Source of the DNA: a virus
IMG/VR virus record: IMGVR_UViG_3300017773_000021
Location: 1 to 46,345 of that record
DNA: 46,345 nucleotides
Strand: one strand, 5' to 3'
Shown: piece after piece, positions 2,241 to 46,345 of the stretch
Layout of the letters: every line of letters begins with the position of its first letter
Position numbering within the stretch: the first letter of the stretch is position 1
Notes under the pieces: generated by a model
Seen by the model: only the letters and a program-made list of their open reading frames with translations
What the model was told of the DNA's origin: nothing
The model's database searches: none
Translations under genes and position numbers: made by a program

Positions 2241-2933
2241 TTATTCTATTTCGTTAAGTTCTATTTTACTTGATTGGTATCTTGGACTTTCTATATTTTC
2301 TAGAGCCTCTAAGACAGCCATCCTTACAATCTCTCTGTGTGTATGGTTTGCTAAATTGCACCCTACTTTATCTAAATAAGAGACAACTGTAGGATTTTTA
2401 ATGTACCTTAAATGATACTTATTTATAATTGAACCTTCTCCACAAATTAATTCAAATCTATTGTTAGAGTAATCCAATCTATAAACAGTATGCTTCTCAG
2501 GTTTATTAAAAGGGTCATCTATAATTTTATTATACCTATCATGAGTTATTGGTGTTACACTAACTCTTTTTGAAGATGGTATAGTAACTTGAGACCCTTC
2601 TAAACTAATCATTGCCTCTTCATTTATAGCATGTCTATAATGTTTAGGCAATTGTACAAATCTACCATTTACTTTATTAGATCCTGATAAATCTACACTG
2701 TCTGGATTTAAAGAGGCATGAACTATTAAATTACGTAAATCATCTCGACGTTTTTGATCTTCTTCAAAAGTTGTTCGTCTAGAGTTATTACCAAATGCAC
2801 GTTTAGATATAAATCTTTCAATAGCTGCATTTAAAAACACATCTATCTCACTAGACAAAAATGATGGGGCTCCACCAGAATCTGCCTTGTCAATTAATAT
2901 TATAAACTCTTTGTGCATTTCCTCTATGCTCAT
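2241..2933 (-). CDS. Neck/ring (head-to-tail adaptor) protein candidate
   Basis: The 230-residue protein begins with a helical segment, residues 3-50, that ends in SSEIDVFLNAAIERFISKR. This is the pattern seen in tail-stub and ring proteins of crAss-like and other Bacteroidetes phages, in which a small N-terminal helical domain is followed by a mixed beta domain and a C-terminal helix. The rest has Tyr/Asn-rich strands and a C-terminal helical segment with HREIVRMAVLEALEN. It directly follows the capsid-adjacent 285-aa gene, with one base between stop and start. A connector role is inferred from this resemblance and from gene order; no structure-level comparison could be made. Confidence 0.55.
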   Translation of the reverse strand: MSIEEMHKEFIILIDKADSGGAPSFLSSEIDVFLNAAIERFISKRAFGNNSRRTTFEEDQKRRDDLRNLIVHASLNPDSVDLSGSNKVNGRFVQLPKHYRHAINEEAMISLEGSQVTIPSSKRVSVTPITHDRYNKIIDDPFNKPEKHTVYRLDYSNNRFELICGEGSIINKYHLRYIKNPTVVSYLDKVGCNLANHTHREIVRMAVLEALENIESPRYQSSKIELNEIE

Positions 2934-2934
2934 A

Positions 2935-3792
2935 CTATTTACCTACAGACATTTTACCTTTTAAATCTAAATACACTTCCTGATTGTCAGGATTTTGTAA
3001 ATATTCAATCGTTTGCTCAAGTGTAAATCCTACTGTGTCTCCACCAGGAAGTTGATATTTAGTACCATTCTTTACAAGAACCCTAGACGATATACAATCA
3101 TCAATAAATGCTCTCATTTTAAATGTAGGATCTTCTACAGTAGTTAAGAAGTTCTGCGGATCATCTGTTACAATTTTATCCAGTTGTGACTCAACAAAGT
3201 CTACAGACGCATCGTCTCCAGCTCGTTTACCCATAACCTTAAGAACATCTTTCATTTCTGTAGTATTCATATTACTAAATACTTTGTAAGCTTTACGTTT
3301 AAGTTTAGATTTCTTATTTTCAACTTTAGCTTCTTGCTCTTCTGAAGTCATTACGTACTCGGCAAATGGAGAATCAAATCTTTCCATTTCAGAGTTTGCA
3401 ACTCTTTGATGAGCTTTTAAAACTAAAAATTTTAATTCATCTTCTGGGAACGAAAGATCTAAAATTGTACCTTCTTTAGGAACATCAATTCTAAACATTG
3501 TCCAATAATCTTTATTATATCTTGACAATGTTCCAGGAGACATATTCATTTTGTCTTCCAAACGTCTTTCGTCTTCCTCAGTTAAACCAGTGTTTAGCAC
3601 CCCACTACCTTTCATTGCTTGAACAGTTAAACGCTCAAAGCATTTAGAATAACGGATGGCCCCGTCGTGATCGTCGGGCAGCCATCCATTTTTCTTAATA
3701 GGTTTTAGTGTAACCTTATCTGGTGTAGTATTTATAACAACACTTTCTTCTACTGTAGGTGCGCTCGTTTTTGTTGCCGCTTTCTTTGCCAT
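2935..3792 (-). CDS. Capsid-adjacent structural-module protein (285 aa)
   Basis: The N-terminus is lysine/alanine rich (MAKKAATKTSAPTVEE) and looks disordered; the remaining part is charged and largely helical, with a lysine cluster at about residues 155-168 (KVENKKSKLKRKA). No catalytic motif or membrane segment is seen. It lies between the major capsid gene (28 bases upstream) and the neck-like gene. A gene of similar size next to the capsid gene is common in crAss-like genomes, and I recognise no specific function. Head assembly or head-tail joining is the contextual guess. The basic, disordered N-terminus could contact DNA or the capsid interior. Confidence 0.55.
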   Translation of the reverse strand: MAKKAATKTSAPTVEESVVINTTPDKVTLKPIKKNGWLPDDHDGAIRYSKCFERLTVQAMKGSGVLNTGLTEEDERRLEDKMNMSPGTLSRYNKDYWTMFRIDVPKEGTILDLSFPEDELKFLVLKAHQRVANSEMERFDSPFAEYVMTSEEQEAKVENKKSKLKRKAYKVFSNMNTTEMKDVLKVMGKRAGDDASVDFVESQLDKIVTDDPQNFLTTVEDPTFKMRAFIDDCISSRVLVKNGTKYQLPGGDTVGFTLEQTIEYLQNPDNQEVYLDLKGKMSVGK

Positions 3793-15886: not shown

Positions 15887-16060
15887 ATGAAACATAAAGA
15901 GTTCTTAAGCGTAAAACGAGCAATAGCACAATTCAAAAGAGATAATAAAATTAATCCATTCACCCTAAAACCTTTAGAGAGTTATGAAGATAACACACGA
16001 AGAGATCCATCAAGAGATCGTAAAAATGCTCCAAGAGAGCAAAGCAAAGCTAAGAGGTAG
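15887..16060 (+). CDS. Small basic protein (57 aa), overlapping the next gene
   Basis: The frame opens MKHKEFLSVKRAIAQFKRDN, a helical basic stretch, and ends in a very Arg/Lys-rich tail. Its last 77 bases overlap the gene at 15984-16376 in another frame, where the residues look more like a shadow. The first 34 residues look real. It may be a true small gene with a long overlap, or only a leader frame. Confidence 0.4.
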   Translation: MKHKEFLSVKRAIAQFKRDNKINPFTLKPLESYEDNTRRDPSRDRKNAPREQSKAKR

Positions 16061-16376
16061 AGTACCTCAATCAGTTAAAGATTTAACTGTACGCTTAAGA
16101 CAACCATCATGGTATAATACTCGTGGCGAGCGAGTTAAGAATCCATATTGGAAGAAAGCATACTCTCGTATAGCCAACAGTCGTAGACCTAAGAAGACTT
16201 TAGATTTACTTGACTTCAAAGAGCATATAAACAAGACTGTTGTAAAGCCACGTGAAGAGCGTGTACATCACAATAATAATAGTATATCTATCACATTGCC
16301 AGATGGCATGTCTGCTACAGATTTGATAGATCTTATAGCTATTATCAAGAAATCAGGGGCTAAGTGTAGCCTCTGA
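15984..16376 (+). CDS. Basic early protein (130 aa)
   Basis: The 130-residue protein is strongly basic. Residues 10-80 hold many Lys and Arg (KAKLRGRVPQSVKDL, then NPYWKKAYSRIANSRRPKK), consistent with nucleic acid binding. The C-terminal 35 residues form a strand and helix (SISITLPDGMSATDLIDLI) that resembles a ribbon-helix pattern, which would suit dimerisation. No family is recognised with confidence. It lies immediately before the long structured untranslated region, so an RNA-binding or autoregulatory role is a testable inference. No signal peptide or membrane segment is present. Confidence 0.6.
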   Translation: MKITHEEIHQEIVKMLQESKAKLRGRVPQSVKDLTVRLRQPSWYNTRGERVKNPYWKKAYSRIANSRRPKKTLDLLDFKEHINKTVVKPREERVHHNNNSISITLPDGMSATDLIDLIAIIKKSGAKCSL

Positions 16377-17197
16377 TTATAAACAGATGCGCAATGCGTA
16401 TAAAGTGTTTAACATTACACGTGAGTGACTGACGTAGTTGCTAAATGTAGTCTTATGGTCTGTTCATAAGCAAGTATTAAAAATATGGGGCGTGGCCCGA
16501 TAAGCACAGTAATGTGTAAAAGACTTACCAAGGGCATTCATTATTTCTTGGTAGGTTGCCAGCAATGGTCAATCTACGCAAGCAGAGTATCACACAGAAA
16601 CAGAGGGCTATCGCCTGAGTGAACGTGTGACGTTAGTTGCCAGCTCAACGTTGAGGGAGTAATCCCAATAAGAATAATCTGTAGAACAAGTTCAGAAATA
16701 GTCTGTCAGACTATGTATGGGTATTGTTCAGTAACATAGGTGTCCTTAAACTTAAGGATGTCTTGAATTATCGTGATTTGACAAATCATATGGGCTCGTG
16801 TTGTATTTACATCTCAAAAGGATGATAGCAACCTCCACTGCGCGCCCCCAAGAATTGGCAGTTAATTAAGCTAAACATAACTAAAAAAAAGCAGAAGACA
16901 GTGGACGATAGTACCGAAAGGTGACTAATACTACACACCTCGGTGAATGTAGTGCATTTTATACTCGCAAGGTATAGGTGTTCGCACAAGAAACATTTGT
17001 TTTAGGGTTCGCTACTCTATTATAGATTTATTATTGTGTGAGTAGGTATTATCGATAAGAGTGGTTAGCTATACTAACCGTCATTGATGTGATACACTTC
17101 AAAAGAGTGTGGATAACAGAGGGAAAGACCTTGGCGGGTTATAATCCTAATAAAGACACATCAATTAGTACTTGTAATCTCAGAGTACTATAAACTT

Positions 17198-17240
17198 GAA
17201 GCATATGGTATAAACATGAGTTCGATTCTCATGTGCTTCA
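17198..17240 (+). ncRNA. Minimal tRNA-like element: acceptor stem plus T-arm only
   Basis: GAAGCAT (17198-17204) pairs with GTGCTTC (17233-17239), a 7-bp acceptor-like stem with one G-T pair. ATGAG (17216-17220) pairs with CTCAT (17228-17232) around the loop TTCGATT, a perfect match to the tRNA T-loop consensus with flanking G and C. An 11-base linker containing GG replaces the D and anticodon arms. An unpaired A (17240) sits at the discriminator position, followed by CAA, not CCA. This is close to the minimal RNase P model substrate. It may be a processing signal or a tRNA remnant. Confidence 0.7.
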
Positions 17241-17262
17241 CAAGCGTTTTCCCATAATCGCT

Positions 17263-17324
17263 AAGAAAGAGTTTGCCTTACAATATATAGGTTGGCGAAA
17301 GCTGTGAAAGCTCTTTCTTTTATT
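17263..17324 (+). terminator. Terminator-like hairpin ending the structured region
   Basis: AAGAAAGAG (17263-17271) pairs with CTCTTTCTT (17311-17319), 9 bp, and TTTATT follows. The loop of 39 bases folds further, including GC-GAAA-GC (17295-17302) and GCC (17275-17277) with GGC (17294-17296) as alternatives. The gene at 17368 starts 44 bases beyond it. Confidence 0.55.
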
Positions 17325-17367
17325 CAAGTAATTTATTAATCAACAATCAATAATCAGTAGTTATCCT

Positions 17368-17871
17368 ATGGAGAACACAACAAACACAACAGCAGCTCCC
17401 GTAAAGGTTGAGCAAATTTTATCAACTCGTAACCCTGAAATCTTTCAGTTAATGTTGCGACAAGAAGTAGAAAAGCCTGCAGAGGCAAATCCACTTGGCT
17501 TCTTTCTAGAAGGTTATCCAGGTGTAGGTGACAGCGTTGAAAGACGTGTTGCGTATCAAACTGTGTCTAAGCAGTTTATTGAGAAGTATGACATCACAGA
17601 AGGCTGTGATTTTGCCATTGCAATTGGTAAACCATGTAAACTACTTGTAACCGAGACGTTTGAACAACGCACTTGGGAAGGTGGTGAGCAACAGCCAAAG
17701 GTAAATCCTTCTACAGGTGATATACTCACGCAAAATGGTAGCCCAATCTATCGTAATTGTAACATATCATTTGACGTAAATGCACAAGATGTATTTATTG
17801 CTCATGATAGAGCTACAACTGCAAGCGCTACAAAAGTAGCTGCTCAAATGGTAGATGATCTTAATTCATAG
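17368..17871 (+). CDS. Replication-block protein of unknown function (167 aa)
   Basis: The 167-residue protein has a Thr/Ala-rich N-terminus, a central mixed alpha/beta domain with two aromatic strands (GFFLEGYPGVGD, then CKLLVTETFEQRTW), and a polar C-terminus ending QMVDDLNS. The acidic C-terminal tip and a beta-rich core are loosely like single-stranded DNA-binding proteins, but a separate SSB-like gene lies at 27094. No motif is decisive. The first gene after the structured RNA, it opens a tight run of small genes that leads into polA. High expression is likely from its position. Confidence 0.55.
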   Translation: MENTTNTTAAPVKVEQILSTRNPEIFQLMLRQEVEKPAEANPLGFFLEGYPGVGDSVERRVAYQTVSKQFIEKYDITEGCDFAIAIGKPCKLLVTETFEQRTWEGGEQQPKVNPSTGDILTQNGSPIYRNCNISFDVNAQDVFIAHDRATTASATKVAAQMVDDLNS

Positions 17872-34739: not shown

Positions 34740-34875
34740 TGTCTATAATTATAAAAATTTGTATTAATCCTAAAAAAATTTGTATTTCATAATAAGGTGC
34801 ATACTCTTCAGGTTGGAAGTGTCTTACTCCAAATAGTATGCCTTTTGCCCATTGTATCCCAAATGTAAACCTCAT
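34711..34875 (-). CDS. Small conserved-looking protein (54 aa)
   Basis: The frame reads MRFTFGIQWAKGILFGVRHF and then a hydrophobic stretch EIQIFLGLIQIFIIID and an Asn-rich tail. Its ATG overlaps the giant protein's stop codon (TAATG), and its own stop overlaps the start of paralogue C by 29 bases. The Gly-Ile-Leu-Phe-Gly-Val-Arg-His-Phe and Ile-Phe-Leu-Gly-Leu-Ile-Gln-Ile blocks look strongly conserved-like, and I recall similar short proteins in other Bacteroidetes phages. It may be membrane associated; the function is unknown. Confidence 0.55.
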   Translation of the reverse strand: MRFTFGIQWAKGILFGVRHFQPEEYAPYYEIQIFLGLIQIFIIIDNGNTNNNID

Positions 34876-37800
34876 TAGTCTTCGTCTTTAAAATATTCTT
34901 CTTCTATATAATCAGATAATCCATAAGATGTATCTAAATCTTTTTCTGTTATTATGGTCCATTTGTATATCTGGTTTGTTAAAGGGAATACTTTACCCCA
35001 TTTATACATTGGGTGATCTCCTCTATAATCATCTTTTAGTATATATCTTTGTGTACCATCAAATGCTCTTGTAACATCTGTTATTGTTTTAAGTGCAGGT
35101 GACGGGTCTTTGAATACACTAATAAATGTAGCAGGATTTCTATAGTAACTTAAATCTTGCTCTACTCTAAATAATATATTTAGTAGCGCTTTTAATGCTG
35201 GATCTGATAATGCTTCTTCATCATCAGTGTCATCTGCTAGACCTTTTAACATTAAACCTAAAGCCATTATAGTTATCTGAGCTTTCATAGCTGCAAATGT
35301 CTTTTTTAAGTTTATTGCATCTAGATTGTCTTCTACACCACTCATTATACTATCAGTGGATTGTCTAGTAACGCGTTTTAGTAATAACTTCATCATAATT
35401 TTAGATGAGTTAACTATTCCTACGTCAAATACACTATTATATCTACCTTTTGTGTATCTACCTAGCTGATCATTCCAGATTTTTTTACTATATCTCGTGT
35501 TAAACCCTTCAAAAGCCCATGTTCTAAAGATTGTAAATAATAAATTAAAGTCTTTACTTTTAACTTTAACTAAAGAGTTAGGATCATAGTTACCATGTAA
35601 TTTTTTATTCATCTCAATTGAAGCATCTCTAAACTTAGTATAAGAATTTCTTGTAGTTGCTTCTAAATTATTAAAGTCCCACTCTTTTTGGTAACCAAAC
35701 TCTTCTACATTCCATGTAGCATCTTTATTAAATGCTTCATATAAGTTACGTTTGTTACCCTGAAGGTCTACAACTGTTGTGTTTAACATCTTAGCTATAG
35801 CAGACATACCTTGCACTACGAATTCTGTAGATTGTTGTATATACATAGGAGATACTCTACCTAACATTTTAAATTTCTTTTCTCCTCTTGCAGCTGGAGA
35901 TCCATATGTTATCTCACGCATTTCAAACAGTAAGTTCATACGTTTCATAATAGCTGCTGCTTTCGATGAAGATGGGTTTACTGCAGAGGCCATTATTATT
36001 CTTAAAGCTTTACCTAGCTCTTTGCTTGTGTAATCTTCTTCACCTGCAGCATGTATAGATGATGCTAACATACCAAATCCAACGTTAGCAATACCAGCAG
36101 ATAAGTTCCAACCTAATCCTTTTAGTTGTGTAAAACTTACAAAGCCTCGTATTAGTTTATTAAAACTAAATGCTTTTATATTAAGTTCTTTAAACTCTTT
36201 CTCCAAAGCATCTGCAGCTGTATTAAATTGAGCCTTAGTAATTGTACCGTCGACTAACTTATCATTTAACTCATCATACTGTTTTTTCAATTCTTCCGCT
36301 CGTCTTTTTCTGCTTAGTATATCCTTACTAAAGTTACCTGGCATCTCTAGACTTGTTTTACTAACTTTTTCTCTAGATCTACCGTACATAATAGATTGTT
36401 GTGCGTAATCTAAAGCTTCTTGTATAACCTGTGGTCCAGATTTAATTGTAATGTTTTTATCAGATCCCCAACGTTTAAATTTCTTACCTCTAGAATCTAG
36501 ATAAGGTTTAGTTGCTTCTCTAACTGTACGCATTAATATGTCTACAAGCGGTTCTGCCTCTGATTTAAATTTATAATTCATAGACATACCTGCAAACATT
36601 ACCATAACACGCTCCATGTCAAAAGCCCTGTCTTCTACTGCTACATCTTCAGATCCTAAAAATCTTAACGGTACCTTAGATACAGGTACACCGCGCTCAT
36701 CTAATTCAGCTTTTAATCCTTCGTTTTCTCTGTTAAGTGTTAGAGTTTCATCTGCAAATAAAGCGCCGTACAACTTTGTATCTTTACCTAAGTAAGACAG
36801 TGCAGCTATAGCTCCTCTATTCATATACTCTTCTAACAGATCTTTTTGTATTGTAGGAAAGAAGTTTTCTGACATTTCATTTACTGCAACTTCAGGTAAG
36901 TAACTTTTGTATCTAGCCATACTGTCTGTCCAGAATAAATAAAAATCAGATAGTATATCATTATTTTCTATAATAGAAAACTCATTATTAAAGTACTCTG
37001 TCCTTTCAGGACGTGGGTATGCAATTGTGTACTTCCATCCTGCCGTACCATAACCAATGTTTATAGCTGTTGTGTTAAATCTTTGGTTTAGATACAACTC
37101 TGGATTATTTTTATCCACCCATCTTTTATGTATAGCTTCTGCAGTTTCTTGAAGAGTTAATCCTATTGCGGGCTGTATAACACCCTCAGATAAATCTGTT
37201 GCAACTTTTCTTCTGTGCGCTAGTTCTTCTAAGTTATATCTTGACAAACTATTTTCTGCTTGGCCTATTAAATCTTTTGCTACAGACTCACCAAATGTAT
37301 CATTTAGATATTGTATATATTCTTGTTTAGATTTTAACTCACCAGCTGTATGATCATTTTTTGTCCAAAAACGTATGTCAATTACTTCTTCCATACTATT
37401 TTTAGTGTCATATAACTTTTTAAAAGACTCAAATCTTTCTTGTCTTATTTGATCTACTGTTAATCTTGTAGACCCAATAATTCTTTCAAGTTCTTTTCTG
37501 TGCTCACTGTGTGCTTTACCTAAATCTTTGTAATAAGATTCATCAAACTTAGATGCAAAATAACCAGTTTTGTTTCCGTCTTTATCTTTTTGTAAGAATA
37601 TGTCTTCTGATATATTTAATTTTTTAAGCTCTGCACGTAAGTCTTTAAACTTCTTTTGTATATCTGTAACTTCATTTAGCGTGCTGTCTTCTGCATTTCT
37701 TGCCACTGTCTTTAGTGCGCCGTCTGCAGCTCTTGCTACAGGGTTTACAAATCCTGATGCATCTATAAAGTAACCTCTAAACCATCCTTCATCTTGCATA

Positions 37801-40800
37801 TCTAAGAATGCAGACATAGAGTCATCTGTTAATGGTTCACCACTTACTTTCTCTACATAATTTTTTACCCACTCTTTCATTTTAGCAGCCATAGTTAGCT
37901 CTACACTAGAGGCTATATTACCTATGTCTTCAAATGTTTTTCTTGTTGGGTTATTTTTATCCTTAGCTTGTTCTTCAGATAATAAATGTTTAGTGTTTTT
38001 AAAACTCCAAATATCTACCATTCTAGAGGCATCTGCCATTTCTTGTAGAGATAGCCTAGGCCTTTCTAAAATATTTTTAGCCCATTCTAATTGACGTAGT
38101 GCAACATCTTCTATTACATATGTATTATTACCTTCTTTTAGTTTTTCAATGTCATCTTTTAAAGAGTCTATTTGAGAATCAAGGTATATACGTTTTTCTA
38201 CAGAGGTAGCTAAAGTTTTTCTACGTTGTAGCGCTTTAATTCTACCGTTAATACTTTGCACTACTTCTGCTATTTCTCCGTGTGCATTTACAGGCATGTC
38301 AATAGTGTCTGATACTATAGAATAATCAGTTTGCCCTTTTTCTATTATCTCTTGTTCTACATCTTTTAAAAATGCCTGAACATCGTTATTGTATCTTTTT
38401 CTAAAAGCCTCTACTATTTCTTCTCTAGTTCCTCTTGACTCTAATTGTCTGTACCCAGCAAGTTCTCTTATAGCTAGCTCTACTACACTTTCAAATGTGT
38501 GTTGTGCTTGAGGTGTTTCTACAGTAGGAGCTGCATCTTGTGATGCTACTTGTGAATTTACTGCATTTTTAATACTAGATATAGGAGCTTCTCTATGGTG
38601 ACGTTCTATTGTCATTTCTACCTCATTCTCTGCTCTTGTTATAGCAGTGTACAACCATCTTGCAGGATCAAATATTACTTTTTCTCGTCCTGTATTTCTA
38701 TCTAGTATTACACCTGAGAATCCGTGGTCTACAAATACTTTATCCCATTGGGAACCTTGAGATTTATGTCCTGTAATACCATATCCATAGTAAGCCATTA
38801 TAACACTATCTTTAACTACCTTTTTTTCTGTTTTAGTTCTTTGGTCAAACGTTGTTTCTATAAAAGGCTCAAAGAATTGTAAATTTGCAGCAAGTTTTGC
38901 AGGGTCATTTATTTTAAATGCTCTACTAAACATACCAGTAGTAAATTGGCCATGATACATACTAGCTTCTTTACTATCAGGAAACAGTAATATAGTATTA
39001 CCTCTTTCATCTAAAACAGCTTGTACGGTTACAGGTTTAAAATATTGTCCTGTCCCATAGTATATAGTAGTTTTTTCAGGTCTTTGTGGGTGTTTAGTGT
39101 ATGTTTTACTTCTATCCTCACCTATAATTTCACCGTTAGCTACATCTTTTACTTCTTCTCCATGAGAATTTATTAAACCTCCTGTTCCTGTAGTACCATT
39201 AGCTACTACTATTAATACTTCACCATCTTCTATAACATCTGCATCTTTTCCATATAACACTTCTCTTGCTAATTTATTAGCTGTTATTCTTGCAGGATTA
39301 GAAGCTGCTAGCATTATAGTGTTTCTTCCTTCTTTTAAAGTAGTTAACCAGTTTCTATATGTTTCTTGTTTGTTTCTATTTATTTTAAAGTCAGAAACAG
39401 ATGTAGACGGTATTGTAATTTCTTTAGTATTACGCATATTAGTAGCTACAGTTAATACTGAACTATCTAAACTCTGACGTTTTACTTCTGTCATTTCTAT
39501 ATTATGAGAAAATTCTCTATCTGTAAAAATATTAGGATCTTTACCTACTGGAGGTAATTGGAATCCATCCCCTACATATATAGTTTTTAAACCTCTGTCT
39601 TGGAATTCATTTAAAGACTTCATCACATCTTCACTTAACATAGATGCTTCATCCATTATATGTATAGCATTTTCTAAGTTAAGATCTTCTAGTCTTTTTT
39701 CTGATAAAACAAACTTTCCTGACTCATCAGGTGTTCCGTATAAGAACTGATGGTTTGTAAGCAAATTAGTTTCTCGGCTTACAGGAGCTTTAACACTTTT
39801 TAGTTTTCTTTCTATTACTAAAACAGCTTTGTTTGTAGGAGCTGTTACGTAAATTGACTTACCTACACGCTCGGCGTATTTTATAATATTTTCTAGAATA
39901 GTTGTTTTACCTGTTCCTGCATACCCTGCTAATAACATTTCTTTAGAATCAGATTTTATAAAGTCAGCTGCTATTAACAGTGCTTTAGTTTGATCATCTG
40001 TGTATGTTATAGGATTTAATCTATCTTGTAATATAGAAGAATCTGAATTAGGGAATTCTTGCTCTATCTGTATTTCAGATTTAGATCTGTGTAACCATCT
40101 TTGGAATTTTTTTACATTCGCATCGTCTACTGTAGGTTCTGTAATTTCTATAGAAATACCTTTTTCTACAATAGCATAAGACGGGTCTTCAGCTCCAACT
40201 TCATAATCTACTCTAATAGGTAGTATCTCTAGGCTTTCTATTTGTATTTCAGGGCCTATTCTTTCAGCAAGAACTCTGTACATATTCAGCTGGTTAGTCC
40301 ATTTGTCTATGTACCATTCTTTACCTTTAGGTGTTACAACGTCTGTACCTCTTTCATACAATTTACTTGTACCGTTACGTACAGTTTTAACGTCTATAAT
40401 TTTTACCTGCTTATCTTTGTTTACAGCAATAATATCTGTTGTACCTGCTACACCTAAATCTGTGTTTCCTACAACAATTTCATCGGATATTATTTTGTAA
40501 CCATCTGCAATTAACTTGTCTCTTCGTTTAGCTATTTCATCTACTACCTTGTTATACACTTCAGGTACTTCAGGGTTTTGGTTAGCCATAACTTTTCTTA
40601 CAATCTCATCTGCTTTGTTACCTATATTTACTGCAGTATCTCTAAGTTTTGTATCACCAGTAAAAGTATCTTTTTTATAGAATTCAGACACTCGATTAGT
40701 TTCTACGTTAGGGTTAGTCATGTGATAATACTTTTCTATCTTTTGACCGTCTTCTGTAACTCTTCCAGTGTCTTTTTTCTGCCACTCAGAGCTGTGCTCT

Positions 40801-43800
40801 TGTAATATAGATTGTATAACTTGCTTACCTTGATCTTCTAGTTTACGTAGATTCTCTTGTTCTATTTTATTTTTAGCATCTTGCAGTTTATCTGTAGGAG
40901 TAGCTTGAGGCCCATTAACAATAACTTCTCCCGTAGGCATTCCGTTACTATCTAAAACCATTGTAGCGCCACCAATTATACTTGCCAACTCTCCTGTATC
41001 TTTTTCAGGTGTTCTAGACTCTGGTATCGGGTCTTGCACTGTTTCATCTTGTATCTGTAAGAACATTAACATTTCATTTATTCCTACATCTAAAGCGCTA
41101 CCTTCTTTTATATCAAATCCTAACTGCTTACCTAAAGCTAAGAAATATTTTTTTACTGTATTTTTTATCTTTTCAAATAAAGTGCTGTCTTTTTGGTAAG
41201 GTATGTTGTTTAAGAATTCTTGCAGGTGTTTGTTTTCTGCCATTCCTGCAACTAATTCTCTAACATTAGACAGGCCATATGCTATTCTTTTCTTTCTATT
41301 TTTTTCTCTTTCTGTTCTTGTTTTTTGGTACCTTTCAGAAGAATCAAACTCTCTTTTTGCTCTTTCTAATAAAGCTTCCATTGATCTTTTAAATCTTTTT
41401 GCTGCTGGTGATGTGTCTTCACCGCGTAAAGCAGGATTTGTAAAGTAATGTGTTGCTTCATGTAGCATTGTTTTTGCTACTCTAGTTGGAGTAGCTTGTA
41501 CTAAATCAAGAGAGCCTTGGTATATTTCTATTTTTTGAGTTGGGTTTGAGTAAGAACCTAGTATTATACCTTGTTCATTTCTTTTTATTTTATCTAGTAC
41601 CTCCACCCCTTTAAATGGTAAAGATTTGTATATACCTTTTGTTTTATATAATCTTGCAAGTTCAGATGCTCCTTGTTCTCCATCATTAATAATGGTATCC
41701 ATTAAAGCATCTAACTGATTATCATAATTATCTTTTCTATTATTATAATCTTCTATAGGATCCATAACATTTACACCAGGAGCATCTTCATATGCTTCCA
41801 TAGGCACTTCATGCCAAGGAACTCCTACAGGTGGAACACCATCTGGGATAGGATCTTTAACAGTTTTAATTACTTTGTTGTCTTCTAGATAAGAGAAAGT
41901 ATTACCTGTGTGGTCATACTCTGTACCAAACTTATCACCTTTTAAGTCTATACGCTTAAAATATATACCGTTATCCACGCTAGATTCTAAAGTAAACAAG
42001 TAGTATGTTTTACCTACTGGATAAGTTAAAAAGTTTTTATAATATGCTTTTCCTTCTGCTAAATACATAAAGTTTTCTAAAGCAGGTAAATCTTTAGCTT
42101 CATCTATATTAGGTAAAATTAACCCTGTAATAACTTTATTGTCTTCTTGAACAGTAACATGCTTACGTATCTTTTTATCTTTTATGTCTATTTCTGTAGC
42201 GTACCATGGACTATGTTGTATAACTTGAGTTAAGTAAGATATTACAGATGTAATCCCTTCTTCTCTAAACATATTGTCACTAAGCTGTTTAGTTAGTCCT
42301 AAGTTTTCTAAAGCTCCAAATGGAATCATGTTTAAATAAGATGATGCTTTTTGATTACCACCATTTAAATATGCAGCCATAAGTAAATTTTTAGCAAACT
42401 CTTGAGCTTCTGCATTACCTAAGAATAAAGCTGTAAAACCTCGTTGCATTGCTATATTGTCTATATTACTAGACCAGTCTATACCTACAGCAGCTTTACC
42501 TTTATTTTTATTTGTAGAATAGTAAGGTGTTAAGGCCATAACAAACTCATTTGTTTTACCCCAATCTTCTTTTTGTGCCTTACTAGTTTGCACTGCAATA
42601 TTATTGTCTTCTACAAATAATTTACGTCGTAGTTCATAAAGACTATTAGCTTCTTTTCTTTCTTTTATAAATACTTGCTCTAATGCGTAGCTCCAACCGT
42701 TAGATATAATACCATCATATAATGCACCTGATATATTTTCACTAACTTCTGTAGACCCTGTATTATTTATAAACGCTTCTTCTATGTCACGTATAAACTG
42801 TGTGTCTGTAGGATATACATTATTAAATAGTGTGAACCCACTTGTTAGATACTTTGCTAAGTTTGCGTACTCTGTATTTTCTAAACTTTTCAGTCCCGCA
42901 ATACCTGAGTTAAAAGTATTTACACCTTTAACAAAATCCATTTCGCCTACATTAAATACATCATTAAATCTTTTAATGTATGATTTAGCAGAAGCTATTG
43001 TAGATTGTAATCCACGCACACTAGGATCGTTAATAGCTTTTCTAGGTTTATTTAAAGTATCAGAAAAAGCCTCAAACTTTTTAAACTTTTTAAATATTGC
43101 TATCTGTTTTTGATAGTATTTAGCGTCTTTTTCTATTCCAGAGTTAGGCGCACCTATTATTAATTCTTCCTTTAACGCTTTAGATTGAAATAGCATTTCA
43201 AAGTTTTCATTTTTTTCGTTTGAATACTCTTCTACTATAGCTTCTACTTCATTAACATCCTCTAGTTTAGCTAGCTTTTGGTATTTTTCCATTATTACCT
43301 TTTCAGCTTCACTTTTACGTTCAAAAACATTCTTATCAGATAATCCTTGCACTATTTTATCTAACTCTCTAGTATATTCCCGCATAATTTCCTGCGGCAT
43401 CATATACCCTGATATTTCTATAGGTACACCACCCATATCCATAAATAAAGATGTAGGCAGAGTATCCATGGTAAAGTTTAGTTTACCTAGCGTAGGTTTA
43501 TTTGCATTATCTATGGCTGCATTTAGTTTTATATTTATTACATCTGACGACGTTCTAAAAAACTTTTTACCTTTTTTGTAGTATACACTTTTGTTTTCAC
43601 CTGACAAGTCACTAAACTTAAGTGGTTTATATTGTCCTTTCTTAGGCCCACTTTTATAAGTTTCTTCTGTAAACAACCCTAGTATTTCAAAGTTTTTTAC
43701 TGTTGTTTGATTACCAGATTTTTTAAGTGTAGCCAGATGTATGTTTTTACCTTCAAATATTGCATTTAGAGTGTTTGCTTGTGCGCCAGGACCAATTAAA

Positions 43801-46345
43801 ATCTGCCCTGCTCTTTGTGATATATTATCTCTAATCTGATCTATTCTACTTATAGCAGTTCTTGGACGAACATTTGCATTTAGTATTTTATCTACATCTT
43901 CTGCAATATTTTCTAAGGCAGGATCATCAATACCTTTTGACATTTTATCATAGGCATCTTTATTTGTAGTAATTACAGACCAGAATATATCACGCAACTC
44001 ATCTAAGAGCAACATTTCATCTGTAAATTTATTTGCATTTTTTACTCTATCTCTTCTATAAACACCTTTTATATTGTTATCTGTATCTTTAGTTACAATA
44101 TACTGTGCTATAATAGAGTTTAGGGTATCTACATCAAAATCACTACCCATTTGAGGTAGCATCTCATCAGGTACAATAGAAGTTATTTCCATATTCTTAG
44201 GTAAGAACCCTACTATCTCTAGTGGCATTTCTGACGCTAAGTTTTGATATGGTATACGATAGCCTATCATATGTCTTACATCTGCAGGTACAGTATTAGG
44301 ATTTAAGAAAAGTCTACCATTCTTTTCAAACAAGAATATATAATTTCCTGCTTTATCTTTGGCCATTATATCTAGCTCGTTTCCATCCTCGTCTTTGTAG
44401 AAAAACTTAACCATAACTTGGCCAGGTATAACTTCACCCTTTTTTTCATCCCATCTAGGCCCTTGTAATCCTTCAGCTTCGTTGAAACTTGTAGTTGTAA
44501 TTACTTGGTTACGCATAGAGCCTTCTACTTCAGACCATGCTGCTGTAGATTTAAATCCTGCAGAAGATGACTGTACATATGTAATACCTGGTATCTTTAC
44601 AGCAGCTATTTTATTTACAACACTCAACATAAGTCCTTCCAACATCCTTCTAGATTGTATAAAAGGTAATGGCACAAGCGTTCCTGAGCCATCTTTTTTA
44701 AGTTCTAAAGAGAATATGTCGTTTATATTCCAGTTTCTAGCTTTTGCCTCTTCTTTTAATGCTGATACAAGCTCGCTTAATTGTACTTCGCTTCCGTCAA
44801 CAGCTAATAATTCTCCGCCTTCTTCAGTTTGTATATTACCAAATCTTTTTAAAACTTTATCATGCTTTAATTTGTATATAAGACTTACAATTTCTTCTTT
44901 TCTTTTTCTTAGATCTTCTCCTAATATTTCTTTACCATCTATCTTAAACATTTTATCTAGCAATCCTGCAAACATTACTTTTGATTTTTGCGTAGATAAA
45001 GCGATAAGTTGCTGAAGCTTTACATTTTTTTCTTGCTGTATACCTAAACCATCTCTGTACAAAGTAAATATACCGTTGTCTTCTATATTAGACGTTAGCT
45101 GATCTACAGGTAGTATATCACCGTTAGCATCGTAAGCGTCTATAGTTTTATAAGGAGATAATTTATCTGATGTTTTGTGTCCTGCTCTAGCTACTCCAGT
45201 ATTTTCCATTGCTATACGTAAGTTGTCTAGTTGGAAATCACTAGTCATGTCAGGTAGAAGAGGTATAGACATTGATTTTCTATATACTCTAGATAATCTT
45301 CCTGTTTTAGGGTCAGGATGCATAAAGTCGTACTGTGGTTTTACAGGACGTAGCGCAAATGCCATTTCCTGCTCAGTAAGCTCGTAATAATTGTTTGTAT
45401 TACTTTTGTCTTTTATTGCATTATCTATTTTATTAGATATAGAATCGTAAACTTCTTTGTCTATTTGTCCAAAGAAATTTAACATGTCTATATGCTCTTG
45501 TACAGTTGTAAGCTCTAAGGCATCTGTACTTTCTATAGTTTTATTTGTAGGACTTCCGTAGGGGCTTCCTATACCAAATAATTTGTCATAGTATGCGTAA
45601 GATTTAGAATAACTTAACCTGTCGTTTAAAGTTATTGCTGTATACTCACGTTTTTTATAATTACCTTGTATTTTAGGTGCATCTGTACCTATCAAACGCT
45701 TTTGGTAATTTGATCTTGCTGATTGTATTTTATCAGCTACTGTAGCACCTTTACCGTTATATGCTTCTGCTATATCACCTCCAAATAAAATTTGCTGCTC
45801 TATATTAGATATTATATAATTTAGTTCTAGATCTCCAGCAGCCATGGCAGTTTTAGTCTCAGCATTTATATCTTTACCTAAAGAGGCCATGTAGGATTTA
45901 TCAAACTTATCTACAAGATTTAATTCTGTAAATTCTGCTACAGATTCATTTATAATACTTGTAGCAAATTCATTTATAGCTTTCCTTAATATAGGTTCTG
46001 CAGCTACAATATCTATCTTAGGAACACCATCTAGACTTTCTGATGGGTATACTGTATTTACCTCTTCTTCTGTAAAAGACTTTTCTAATTCGTGTTTATT
46101 TAAGAAAGGAAAGAAATGGAAGTACTGCGACCCTTCTCTATACTTCTTATCATCTTGTAAATATGTAGGATCAGAATCAAGCTTATTTTGTGTGTCATAA
46201 ATTCTTTTAACCTCACCAAGGGCATAACTGTATAGATAATCTTCTGCAGTTTTAAATATACCAACAACTTTATTGTCTTCTATTTTAATCTGGTCTTTAA
46301 AGTCTATTTTTTTATGCTCTATAAGCTCTGATATACCACGGTCAG
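34875..46345 (-). CDS. Giant multidomain virion RNA polymerase protein, 5' end off window
   Basis: The frame runs leftward from the right edge to TAA at 34875-34877 without a stop: at least 3,822 codons. The ATG at 45890 is internal, because 151 more open codons precede it. Counting from that Met: MIGYRIPYQNLASEMP near residue 545 and GSDFDVD at 582-588 fit the catalytic loop of crAss-like virion RNA polymerase. HEATH (1477-1481) is a zinc protease motif. Asp1819 and Asp1833-x-Lys1835 fit a PD-(D/E)XK nuclease. GYAGTGKT (1989-1996), DEAS (2080-2083), VGDGFQLPP, GITGHKSQG and YTAITRAE are SF1 helicase motifs. The C-terminal 1,200 residues are long helical, with hydrophobic stretches near residue 3200. 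It may be injected with the DNA. Confidence 0.85.
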   Translation of the reverse strand, partial: DRGISELIEHKKIDFKDQIKIEDNKVVGIFKTAEDYLYSYALGEVKRIYDTQNKLDSDPTYLQDDKKYREGSQYFHFFPFLNKHELEKSFTEEEVNTVYPSESLDGVPKIDIVAAEPILRKAINEFATSIINESVAEFTELNLVDKFDKSYMASLGKDINAETKTAMAAGDLELNYIISNIEQQILFGGDIAEAYNGKGATVADKIQSARSNYQKRLIGTDAPKIQGNYKKREYTAITLNDRLSYSKSYAYYDKLFGIGSPYGSPTNKTIESTDALELTTVQEHIDMLNFFGQIDKEVYDSISNKIDNAIKDKSNTNNYYELTEQEMAFALRPVKPQYDFMHPDPKTGRLSRVYRKSMSIPLLPDMTSDFQLDNLRIAMENTGVARAGHKTSDKLSPYKTIDAYDANGDILPVDQLTSNIEDNGIFTLYRDGLGIQQEKNVKLQQLIALSTQKSKVMFAGLLDKMFKIDGKEILGEDLRKRKEEIVSLIYKLKHDKVLKRFGNIQTEEGGELLAVDGSEVQLSELVSALKEEAKARNWNINDIFSLELKKDGSGTLVPLPFIQSRRMLEGLMLSVVNKIAAVKIPGITYVQSSSAGFKSTAAWSEVEGSMRNQVITTTSFNEAEGLQGPRWDEKKGEVIPGQVMVKFFYKDEDGNELDIMAKDKAGNYIFLFEKNGRLFLNPNTVPADVRHMIGYRIPYQNLASEMPLEIVGFLPKNMEITSIVPDEMLPQMGSDFDVDTLNSIIAQYIVTKDTDNNIKGVYRRDRVKNANKFTDEMLLLDELRDIFWSVITTNKDAYDKMSKGIDDPALENIAEDVDKILNANVRPRTAISRIDQIRDNISQRAGQILIGPGAQANTLNAIFEGKNIHLATLKKSGNQTTVKNFEILGLFTEETYKSGPKKGQYKPLKFSDLSGENKSVYYKKGKKFFRTSSDVINIKLNAAIDNANKPTLGKLNFTMDTLPTSLFMDMGGVPIEISGYMMPQEIMREYTRELDKIVQGLSDKNVFERKSEAEKVIMEKYQKLAKLEDVNEVEAIVEEYSNEKNENFEMLFQSKALKEELIIGAPNSGIEKDAKYYQKQIAIFKKFKKFEAFSDTLNKPRKAINDPSVRGLQSTIASAKSYIKRFNDVFNVGEMDFVKGVNTFNSGIAGLKSLENTEYANLAKYLTSGFTLFNNVYPTDTQFIRDIEEAFINNTGSTEVSENISGALYDGIISNGWSYALEQVFIKERKEANSLYELRRKLFVEDNNIAVQTSKAQKEDWGKTNEFVMALTPYYSTNKNKGKAAVGIDWSSNIDNIAMQRGFTALFLGNAEAQEFAKNLLMAAYLNGGNQKASSYLNMIPFGALENLGLTKQLSDNMFREEGITSVISYLTQVIQHSPWYATEIDIKDKKIRKHVTVQEDNKVITGLILPNIDEAKDLPALENFMYLAEGKAYYKNFLTYPVGKTYYLFTLESSVDNGIYFKRIDLKGDKFGTEYDHTGNTFSYLEDNKVIKTVKDPIPDGVPPVGVPWHEVPMEAYEDAPGVNVMDPIEDYNNRKDNYDNQLDALMDTIINDGEQGASELARLYKTKGIYKSLPFKGVEVLDKIKRNEQGIILGSYSNPTQKIEIYQGSLDLVQATPTRVAKTMLHEATHYFTNPALRGEDTSPAAKRFKRSMEALLERAKREFDSSERYQKTRTEREKNRKKRIAYGLSNVRELVAGMAENKHLQEFLNNIPYQKDSTLFEKIKNTVKKYFLALGKQLGFDIKEGSALDVGINEMLMFLQIQDETVQDPIPESRTPEKDTGELASIIGGATMVLDSNGMPTGEVIVNGPQATPTDKLQDAKNKIEQENLRKLEDQGKQVIQSILQEHSSEWQKKDTGRVTEDGQKIEKYYHMTNPNVETNRVSEFYKKDTFTGDTKLRDTAVNIGNKADEIVRKVMANQNPEVPEVYNKVVDEIAKRRDKLIADGYKIISDEIVVGNTDLGVAGTTDIIAVNKDKQVKIIDVKTVRNGTSKLYERGTDVVTPKGKEWYIDKWTNQLNMYRVLAERIGPEIQIESLEILPIRVDYEVGAEDPSYAIVEKGISIEITEPTVDDANVKKFQRWLHRSKSEIQIEQEFPNSDSSILQDRLNPITYTDDQTKALLIAADFIKSDSKEMLLAGYAGTGKTTILENIIKYAERVGKSIYVTAPTNKAVLVIERKLKSVKAPVSRETNLLTNHQFLYGTPDESGKFVLSEKRLEDLNLENAIHIMDEASMLSEDVMKSLNEFQDRGLKTIYVGDGFQLPPVGKDPNIFTDREFSHNIEMTEVKRQSLDSSVLTVATNMRNTKEITIPSTSVSDFKINRNKQETYRNWLTTLKEGRNTIMLAASNPARITANKLAREVLYGKDADVIEDGEVLIVVANGTTGTGGLINSHGEEVKDVANGEIIGEDRSKTYTKHPQRPEKTTIYYGTGQYFKPVTVQAVLDERGNTILLFPDSKEASMYHGQFTTGMFSRAFKINDPAKLAANLQFFEPFIETTFDQRTKTEKKVVKDSVIMAYYGYGITGHKSQGSQWDKVFVDHGFSGVILDRNTGREKVIFDPARWLYTAITRAENEVEMTIERHHREAPISSIKNAVNSQVASQDAAPTVETPQAQHTFESVVELAIRELAGYRQLESRGTREEIVEAFRKRYNNDVQAFLKDVEQEIIEKGQTDYSIVSDTIDMPVNAHGEIAEVVQSINGRIKALQRRKTLATSVEKRIYLDSQIDSLKDDIEKLKEGNNTYVIEDVALRQLEWAKNILERPRLSLQEMADASRMVDIWSFKNTKHLLSEEQAKDKNNPTRKTFEDIGNIASSVELTMAAKMKEWVKNYVEKVSGEPLTDDSMSAFLDMQDEGWFRGYFIDASGFVNPVARAADGALKTVARNAEDSTLNEVTDIQKKFKDLRAELKKLNISEDIFLQKDKDGNKTGYFASKFDESYYKDLGKAHSEHRKELERIIGSTRLTVDQIRQERFESFKKLYDTKNSMEEVIDIRFWTKNDHTAGELKSKQEYIQYLNDTFGESVAKDLIGQAENSLSRYNLEELAHRRKVATDLSEGVIQPAIGLTLQETAEAIHKRWVDKNNPELYLNQRFNTTAINIGYGTAGWKYTIAYPRPERTEYFNNEFSIIENNDILSDFYLFWTDSMARYKSYLPEVAVNEMSENFFPTIQKDLLEEYMNRGAIAALSYLGKDTKLYGALFADETLTLNRENEGLKAELDERGVPVSKVPLRFLGSEDVAVEDRAFDMERVMVMFAGMSMNYKFKSEAEPLVDILMRTVREATKPYLDSRGKKFKRWGSDKNITIKSGPQVIQEALDYAQQSIMYGRSREKVSKTSLEMPGNFSKDILSRKRRAEELKKQYDELNDKLVDGTITKAQFNTAADALEKEFKELNIKAFSFNKLIRGFVSFTQLKGLGWNLSAGIANVGFGMLASSIHAAGEEDYTSKELGKALRIIMASAVNPSSSKAAAIMKRMNLLFEMREITYGSPAARGEKKFKMLGRVSPMYIQQSTEFVVQGMSAIAKMLNTTVVDLQGNKRNLYEAFNKDATWNVEEFGYQKEWDFNNLEATTRNSYTKFRDASIEMNKKLHGNYDPNSLVKVKSKDFNLLFTIFRTWAFEGFNTRYSKKIWNDQLGRYTKGRYNSVFDVGIVNSSKIMMKLLLKRVTRQSTDSIMSGVEDNLDAINLKKTFAAMKAQITIMALGLMLKGLADDTDDEEALSDPALKALLNILFRVEQDLSYYRNPATFISVFKDPSPALKTITDVTRAFDGTQRYILKDDYRGDHPMYKWGKVFPLTNQIYKWTIITEKDLDTSYGLSDYIEEEYFKDED

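Follow-up and report, generated by a model that had tools for sequence, protein, structure and literature searches.

The locus analysed here raises the question of what a phage keeps in a block of DNA (positions 16377-17324) that carries no credible protein-coding frame. The block lies in a 46,345-base IMG/VR record (the whole stretch analysed, hereafter the window), whose genome is that of a crAss-like phage (a member or near relative of the Crassvirales), because of the affinity of its TerL (nearest to those of Cellulophaga phage phi14:2 and human-gut crAss-like phages) and the presence of crAss-type portal, capsid, polymerase and helicase genes. It is bordered upstream by a 130-aa gene (15984-16376, plus strand) and downstream by a 167-aa gene (17368-17871, plus strand), neither of which has a family match; homologues of the latter are found behind the tRNA-like element described below in relatives. 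An earlier note had read the block as a single large untranslated RNA, richer in G+C than its neighbours, bearing hairpins with GNRA loops (GUAA, GAAA and GCAA) and having the character of the giant RNAs GOLLD or ROOL, without committing itself to either. Its untranslated nature held (there is no credible frame between 16376 and 17368, the longest within 16377-17324 being a 60-aa minus-strand TTG frame), and the G+C enrichment is true but mild (38.5%, as compared to 34.5% in the window and 36-37% in the immediate neighbours). The GNRA hairpins were confirmed as well (GUAA at 16659-16662, GAAA near 16922, GCAA near 16964), the GUAA one being conserved in four GOLLD lineages. As to the remark that giant RNAs often lie near tRNA genes, ARAGORN found none in the window, and a tRNA-like element holds here the place taken by tRNA-Met in some loci. 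Elsewhere in the window we observed a phage protein (22290-23150, plus strand) matching the spore photoproduct lyase family (PF20903, E 9.7e-27), and a minus-strand frame of at least 3671 codons (34875-46343, open at the window end) in which Pfam matches only a PIF1/AAA helicase-like region.

An Rfam covariance search settled the identity of the block as GOLLD: model RF02032 was matched over its whole length (model positions 1-416) at 16791-17186 (plus strand, 214.2 bits, E 2.5e-59), which is 64 bits above the curated gathering score of 150. No other Rfam family passed its threshold in the block, and ROOL had no match up to E 5 in 16200-17500, so that the uncommitted claim held for GOLLD. The Rfam model describes only the 3' domain and leaves the 5' domain outside; by combining this match with a full-length alignment of eight sequences we delimited a GOLLD RNA of about 700 nt (16487-17186, plus strand), the 5' border of which is inferred, being set at the base where conservation in the alignment begins. 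The block thus very likely encodes a representative of the known GOLLD family and is composed of a leader (16377-16486), the GOLLD RNA itself, a tRNA-like element (17198-17243) and a hairpin (17263-17319); hence the claim of one RNA across 16377-17324 held only in part, its last portion being a separate element and hairpin. It is the Rfam match and covariation, and not folding energy, that separate this GOLLD from chance: minimum free energy density (-0.277 kcal/mol/nt, tile mean -0.221, sd 0.028) was dropped as evidence, the block having a z of about -2 and two other window tiles folding better.

The part that Rfam does not cover, a 304-nt 5' domain (16487-16790, plus strand), was resolved with RNAalifold from the window and seven homologues. 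Homology among these eight sequences begins at 16487, compensatory double changes occur in 41 of the 74 consensus pairs of the 5' domain, and the consensus energy of the whole GOLLD RNA is dominated by the covariation term. The alignment thus supports a structured, less conserved 5' domain. A motif comparison across GOLLD loci furthermore revealed a hairpin of the form UUGA-4bp-GNRA-4bp-AAUARG (16651-16672, plus strand, loop GUAA) in 15 of 16 loci tested, spanning four lineages and six different stem sequences, about 135-210 nt upstream of the Rfam start. Two outcomes would have refuted the earlier reading, namely a lack of covariation among homologues and a conserved coding frame; covariation was found and no such frame exists, and both favour it. 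One of its claims failed, namely that a GC pair between 16487-16492 and 16843-16848 closes a domain of about 360 bases. The two sites are complementary (GGGGCG/CGCCCC), but the pairing is not conserved: L037, L041 and L042 keep GGGGCUUGGCCC at the 5' site without a matching 3' partner, and the consensus pairs this site inside the 5' domain instead.

Relatives of the window were collected by a DNA-polymerase search (32 records, 26 of them tested for GOLLD). Three of the 26 carry GOLLD at the same locus (a fourth, L190, was added later by pattern search), which shows that close relatives have gained and lost the RNA at one locus. Four further contigs (L037, L041, L042 and L184, hereafter group B) show 53-55% identity to the window GOLLD RNA, and the eight aligned sequences were drawn from all these loci; blastn retrieved no relative of it among the finished phages of INPHARED, and GOLLD was found neither in phi14:2 nor in cr6_1. 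The sister loci held no other Rfam family except for a tRNA in L014 (13513-13649), where the match is stretched over 137 nt (33.4 bits, no ARAGORN call) and is possibly a tRNA with an insertion.

In the cryo-EM structure of GOLLD env-38, fourteen molecules form a cage in which the 5' domains make up the cap and the 3' domains the ring, and the self-kissing loop L21a alternates between GC and CG (PMC12286853). By counting along the model with the numbering of that study (and not from a structure), we place L21a, which provides bridge B8 between the half-shells, at the loop UUCGCUA (17008-17014, plus strand). At its presumed core the window, L005 and L011 have CG, while L003 (AGCU) and group B (including L037, L041 and L184, GGCC) have GC. 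These self-complementary dinucleotides may agree with a conserved self-contact, a possibility that rests on the numbering. Expression that rises towards lysis is a further criterion of the family. By analogy with env-38, the window GOLLD would, late in infection, build a hollow cage together with 13 further copies, its assembly and expression both being inferred.

Eleven nucleotides after the 3' end of GOLLD (17186) begins a 46-nt element (17198-17243, plus strand), identified by covariance models and covariation, with the sequence GAAGCAU-AUGGUAUAAAC-AUGAG-UUCGAUU-CUCAU-GUGCUUC-A-CAA. It folds into an acceptor stem of 7 bp (17198-17204/17233-17239), a stemless 11-nt D-loop that retains GG (17205-17215, AUGGUAUAAAC), a T stem of 5 bp (17216-17220/17228-17232) and a canonical T loop UUCGAUU (17221-17227), followed by a discriminator A (17240) and CAA. 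It has neither an anticodon arm nor a D stem, only 11 nt separating acceptor and T stem; it is missed by ARAGORN, has no Rfam tRNA match up to E 5, and is no tmRNA, being 46 nt in all and devoid of an mRNA-like domain with a tag frame. A covariance model built from 14 relatives, with the window copy left out (R1), recovered the window element at 46.1 bits (E 7e-8) and had a single hit in each of two 94-96 kb contigs; a second model (R2) scored it at 59.9 bits, and a strict scan hit the window once and 60 shuffled windows not at all. Within the clade 94.3% of alignment cells are paired (32-53% in slid controls), with 24 double-change cells as compared to 6.5 in shuffled alignments (0/500). Nearly all relatives have the element at this locus, 5' of the same downstream gene and regardless of whether GOLLD is there; where GOLLD is present the gap between the two is 11-12 nt (window, L003, L005, L190) or 88 nt (L011), and some clade copies have 19-68 nt between acceptor and T-arm, which fold into a third arm, much as in the tRNA-like portion of tmRNA. 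Between the element and the next gene, folds and sequences support a 12-bp hairpin (17263-17319, plus strand), both stem arms of which co-change in L011 (AACAGAACAGU/ACUGUUCUGUU). Two other stretches were observed upstream of clade elements. A recurring one of about 55 nt (CTAGAAAGGnCGTGATATTCGnCGTAATCCTAAGCA..., in L002, L012, L018 and L019) possibly represents another small structured RNA, because a short stem in it changes on both sides between contigs; a hairpin-forming one (AATAAGTACAACTTAGTGAAAGCCGTGCAA ... GTTGTACTTATT) is shared by L005 (3440-3512), L006 and L008 immediately 5' of the element.

The pattern AUGGUNNAA-N6-GUUCGAUUC, run over all viral contigs, returned 83 stretches, and the full 46-nt fold was found in about 30 contigs outside the window clade, with unrelated stem sequences (e.g. 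GGUCAGC/GCUGACC, GCGCGGG/CCCGCGC, UCCUAUC/GGUAGGA) and with AUGGU and the T-loop invariant. Among 23 representatives 95.7% of cells are paired (41-53% when slid) and 124 are double changes (33 when shuffled, 0/500); the paired percentage is inflated by the choice of sequences with pairing stems, whereas the variety of pair types seen at each stem position is not affected. We consider it very likely that the tRNA-like element constitutes a real, conserved RNA class, and likely that this class is undescribed, none having been found in the open-access full text searched (a report in a subscription journal or preprint is not excluded). Its position is far from random: outside the clade 20 of 33 elements start between -3 and +14 nt of a stop codon (random expectation 4.6%), and eight begin exactly one base into it (-1; expectation 0.26%), as judged with open frames of at least 60 codons and with the reservation that several copies are related, which lowers the number of independent cases. 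Same-strand series occur, with four copies each in G061 (in tandem, in a non-coding stretch), G072 and G041, and at least four in G078. In L202 (which has an HK97-type capsid gene) an element lies 35 nt past the major capsid gene, ahead of that for the head-tail adaptor, and in L279 one fills the gap from UAA to AUG; stop-codon or serial elements were also observed in phages unrelated to the window, namely L191, L193, L202, L205, L215, L217, L230, L241, L256, L258, L274-L278 and others. An origin as a host element is ruled against by the single match (E<1e-5) among 247 Bacteroidota genomes, and the mini-tmRNA pattern gave nine matches in bacterial genomes, none folding as a tRNA-like domain. 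GOLLD was present in only one of 24 phages tested that have the element, which is therefore no component of GOLLD. Longer forms, or a full tmRNA, occur in some phages, and the 46-nt form was identified only outside cultured phages.

Other GOLLDs have borders of their own: a tRNA-Met follows 7-16 nt behind GOLLD in L084, L089 and L100, and L067 and L107 have an intrinsic terminator at that place. In group B an 83-nt tmRNA-like tRNA domain without an mRNA-like part, with a G3-U70 pair in its acceptor, lies upstream (5') of GOLLD (L037:5274-5356; L041:1188-1270; L042:7716-7798, minus; L184:6714-6796, minus), and in L184 the ACUA end of this domain is immediately followed by GOLLD; across 2.9 million viral contigs the pattern of this domain occurs only in these four, all of which have GOLLD. 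Phage phi14:2 (of Cellulophaga baltica) has, at the place comparable to that of the element, only a full tmRNA, which lies unannotated in a non-coding gap (L187:1532-2001, KC821624 4031-4500; ARAGORN tag GSSVQKLAMVA; Rfam 46.0 bits, slightly below the cut-off of 47). A stretch of nearly 700 nt ahead of this tmRNA (L187 ~406-1090, KC821624 ~2905-3589), from which RefSeq removed small annotated ORFs, has no Rfam match and is perhaps another large RNA. The tmRNAs annotated by RefSeq in the uncultured crAss-like phages cr130_1 and cr131_1 (L272:1149-1539 and L273:809-1172; NC_055901 and NC_055902) are ARAGORN calls of the permuted type; that of cr130_1 may be a misannotation, because a mini tRNA-like element forms the end of the call and a degenerate tRNA falls inside it. 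A history of reduction from tmRNA to mini element is plausible, and no more than a possibility with no phylogeny behind it.

Membership in GOLLD, both structures, and their conservation, position and distribution are demonstrated; the cage, the cleavage and its consequences are inferred. We favour, at a probability of roughly 0.6, a reading in which GOLLD is made within a longer transcript and the element is a mark for RNase P and RNase Z. According to it, GOLLD (16487-17186) would be produced within a longer plus-strand phage transcript (co-transcription being inferred from position only), and the element would have lost the decoding parts of a tRNA and kept those that RNase P reads (a 12-bp acceptor/T-stem stack and the elbow formed by the GG of the D-loop and the T-loop). 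A cut by host RNase P at the 5' side of the element would trim GOLLD back to the 3' end of that RNA, and a second cut, by RNase Z or a nuclease like it, would release the downstream mRNA at the 3' side; the element may be one of a general class of such marks that separate the cistrons of phage operons. A processing mark is favoured because the element retains this stack and elbow, and because the corresponding cleavages are known: RNase P measures the T-stem/acceptor stack (PMC4919913), its substrates include tmRNA precursors, phage C4 RNA and polycistronic mRNAs (PMC11143913), and RNAs flanked by artificial t-elements are released by RNase P and tRNase Z (PMC7521656). No Bacteroidota-type promoter was found within 900 nt upstream of the window GOLLD, unlike in stand-alone GOLLDs, which is only weak support because the phage may use its own RNA polymerase. 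Against a processing role stand the eight elements that overlap a stop codon by one base (where an exact 5' cut removes the last base of the stop), the 3' end NCUA or NCAA in place of NCCA (which may weaken RNase P), and the presence of the element at the clade locus with or without GOLLD, so that their adjacency may be historical. We hold this role, taken by itself and in the absence of RNA-seq or cleavage data, to be as readily wrong as right. On the bolder reading that many kinds of phages carry undescribed 46-nt tRNA-like RNAs (lacking the D stem and the anticodon arm, and flanking GOLLD-like large RNAs or lying intergenically at stop codons) that cut transcripts via host tRNA-processing enzymes, we would at present lean slightly to the negative.

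Because the one-base stop overlap argues against simple punctuation at those sites, two rivals are retained, both of them unlikely. The first holds that the uncut element acts in translation, as a tRNA mimic that binds or slows the ribosome and couples termination to re-initiation; for it speak the 8/33 elements at -1 of a stop codon (null 0.26%) and the filling of the UAA-AUG space in L279, and against it the position of the window element (behind a non-coding RNA, and separated from the next start by 128 nt that include a hairpin), the four tandem copies of G061 in a non-coding stretch, and the lack of an anticodon arm to reach the decoding site. The second casts the element as a decoy or effector RNA which, once mature, would mimic a tRNA without its anticodon and titrate out tRNA-handling enzymes or anti-phage nucleases; it is supported by the retention of acceptor, T-arm and elbow (the parts that general tRNA enzymes read) and by acceptor sequences that vary freely between phages, but the near-universal intergenic stop-codon position and the one copy per 94-96 kb genome look like a cis element, and without an anticodon it is no bait for anticodon nucleases. 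Very unlikely is a functionless decayed tRNA or an attachment-site fragment left by integration: the full tmRNA of phi14:2 and the tmRNA-like domains beside GOLLD in L037, L041, L042 and L184 suggest a line of reduction, but this rival is already contradicted by both stems covarying across dozens of sequences around an invariant AUGGU and T-loop, and attachment fragments retain only the 3' part. That the large RNA merely resembles GOLLD, as its diverged 5' domain outside the Rfam model might suggest, is all but excluded by a full-length match 64 bits over the curated cut-off, by conserved core motifs and by a 5'-domain motif common to four GOLLD lineages.

With the GOLLD match a known family gains a crAss-like lineage; of greater importance is the tRNA-like element, which is backed by covariation in many unrelated contigs and either overlooked by common tools or called in part a tmRNA. 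Read as a processing mark, it offers a testable answer to how phages, including those bearing GOLLD, define the ends of their RNAs. It might also explain why GOLLD has long been noted to lie close to tRNA genes, since a tRNA may serve as a processing border.

In comparison with known systems, the large RNA shares with GOLLD (RF02032) a full-length 3' domain, a less conserved 5' domain, a phage-encoded origin and a length of ~700-800 nt (PMC12286853), together with a tRNA-like neighbour and a self-complementary dinucleotide at the presumed L21a loop; the phage location expected of the family applies and the element at 17198 stands in for the tRNA often found nearby, whereas the window belongs to a Crassvirales clade and its border is a mini element in place of tRNA-Met or a terminator. 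The element itself has the acceptor stem, T-arm, T-loop and D-loop GG of a tRNA, but lacks the D stem, the anticodon arm and any ARAGORN or Rfam call. It resembles the tRNA-like domain of tmRNA (RF00023) in its 7-bp acceptor, stemless D-loop and T-arm (longer members of the window clade adding a P2-like arm between them), and differs in having no mRNA-like domain and tag and, throughout the window clade, no G3-U70 pair, which L037-type elements keep. With t-elements (of plant mitochondria, and engineered in Haloferax) it shares a tRNA-like fold, set by inference within a longer transcript between units with ends of their own (PMC8392254, PMC7521656); fold and covariation are present and co-transcription is taken from position only, but it occurs in phage operons, without D stem and anticodon arm, and its processing is merely inferred. 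Finally, like the C4 antisense RNA of P1/P7, M3 RNA and T4 gene 32 mRNA, all of them substrates of host RNase P from phages or operons (PMC11143913), it would present a viral transcript to a host enzyme, but where those are single cases it is a repeated, conserved element with a full T-arm.
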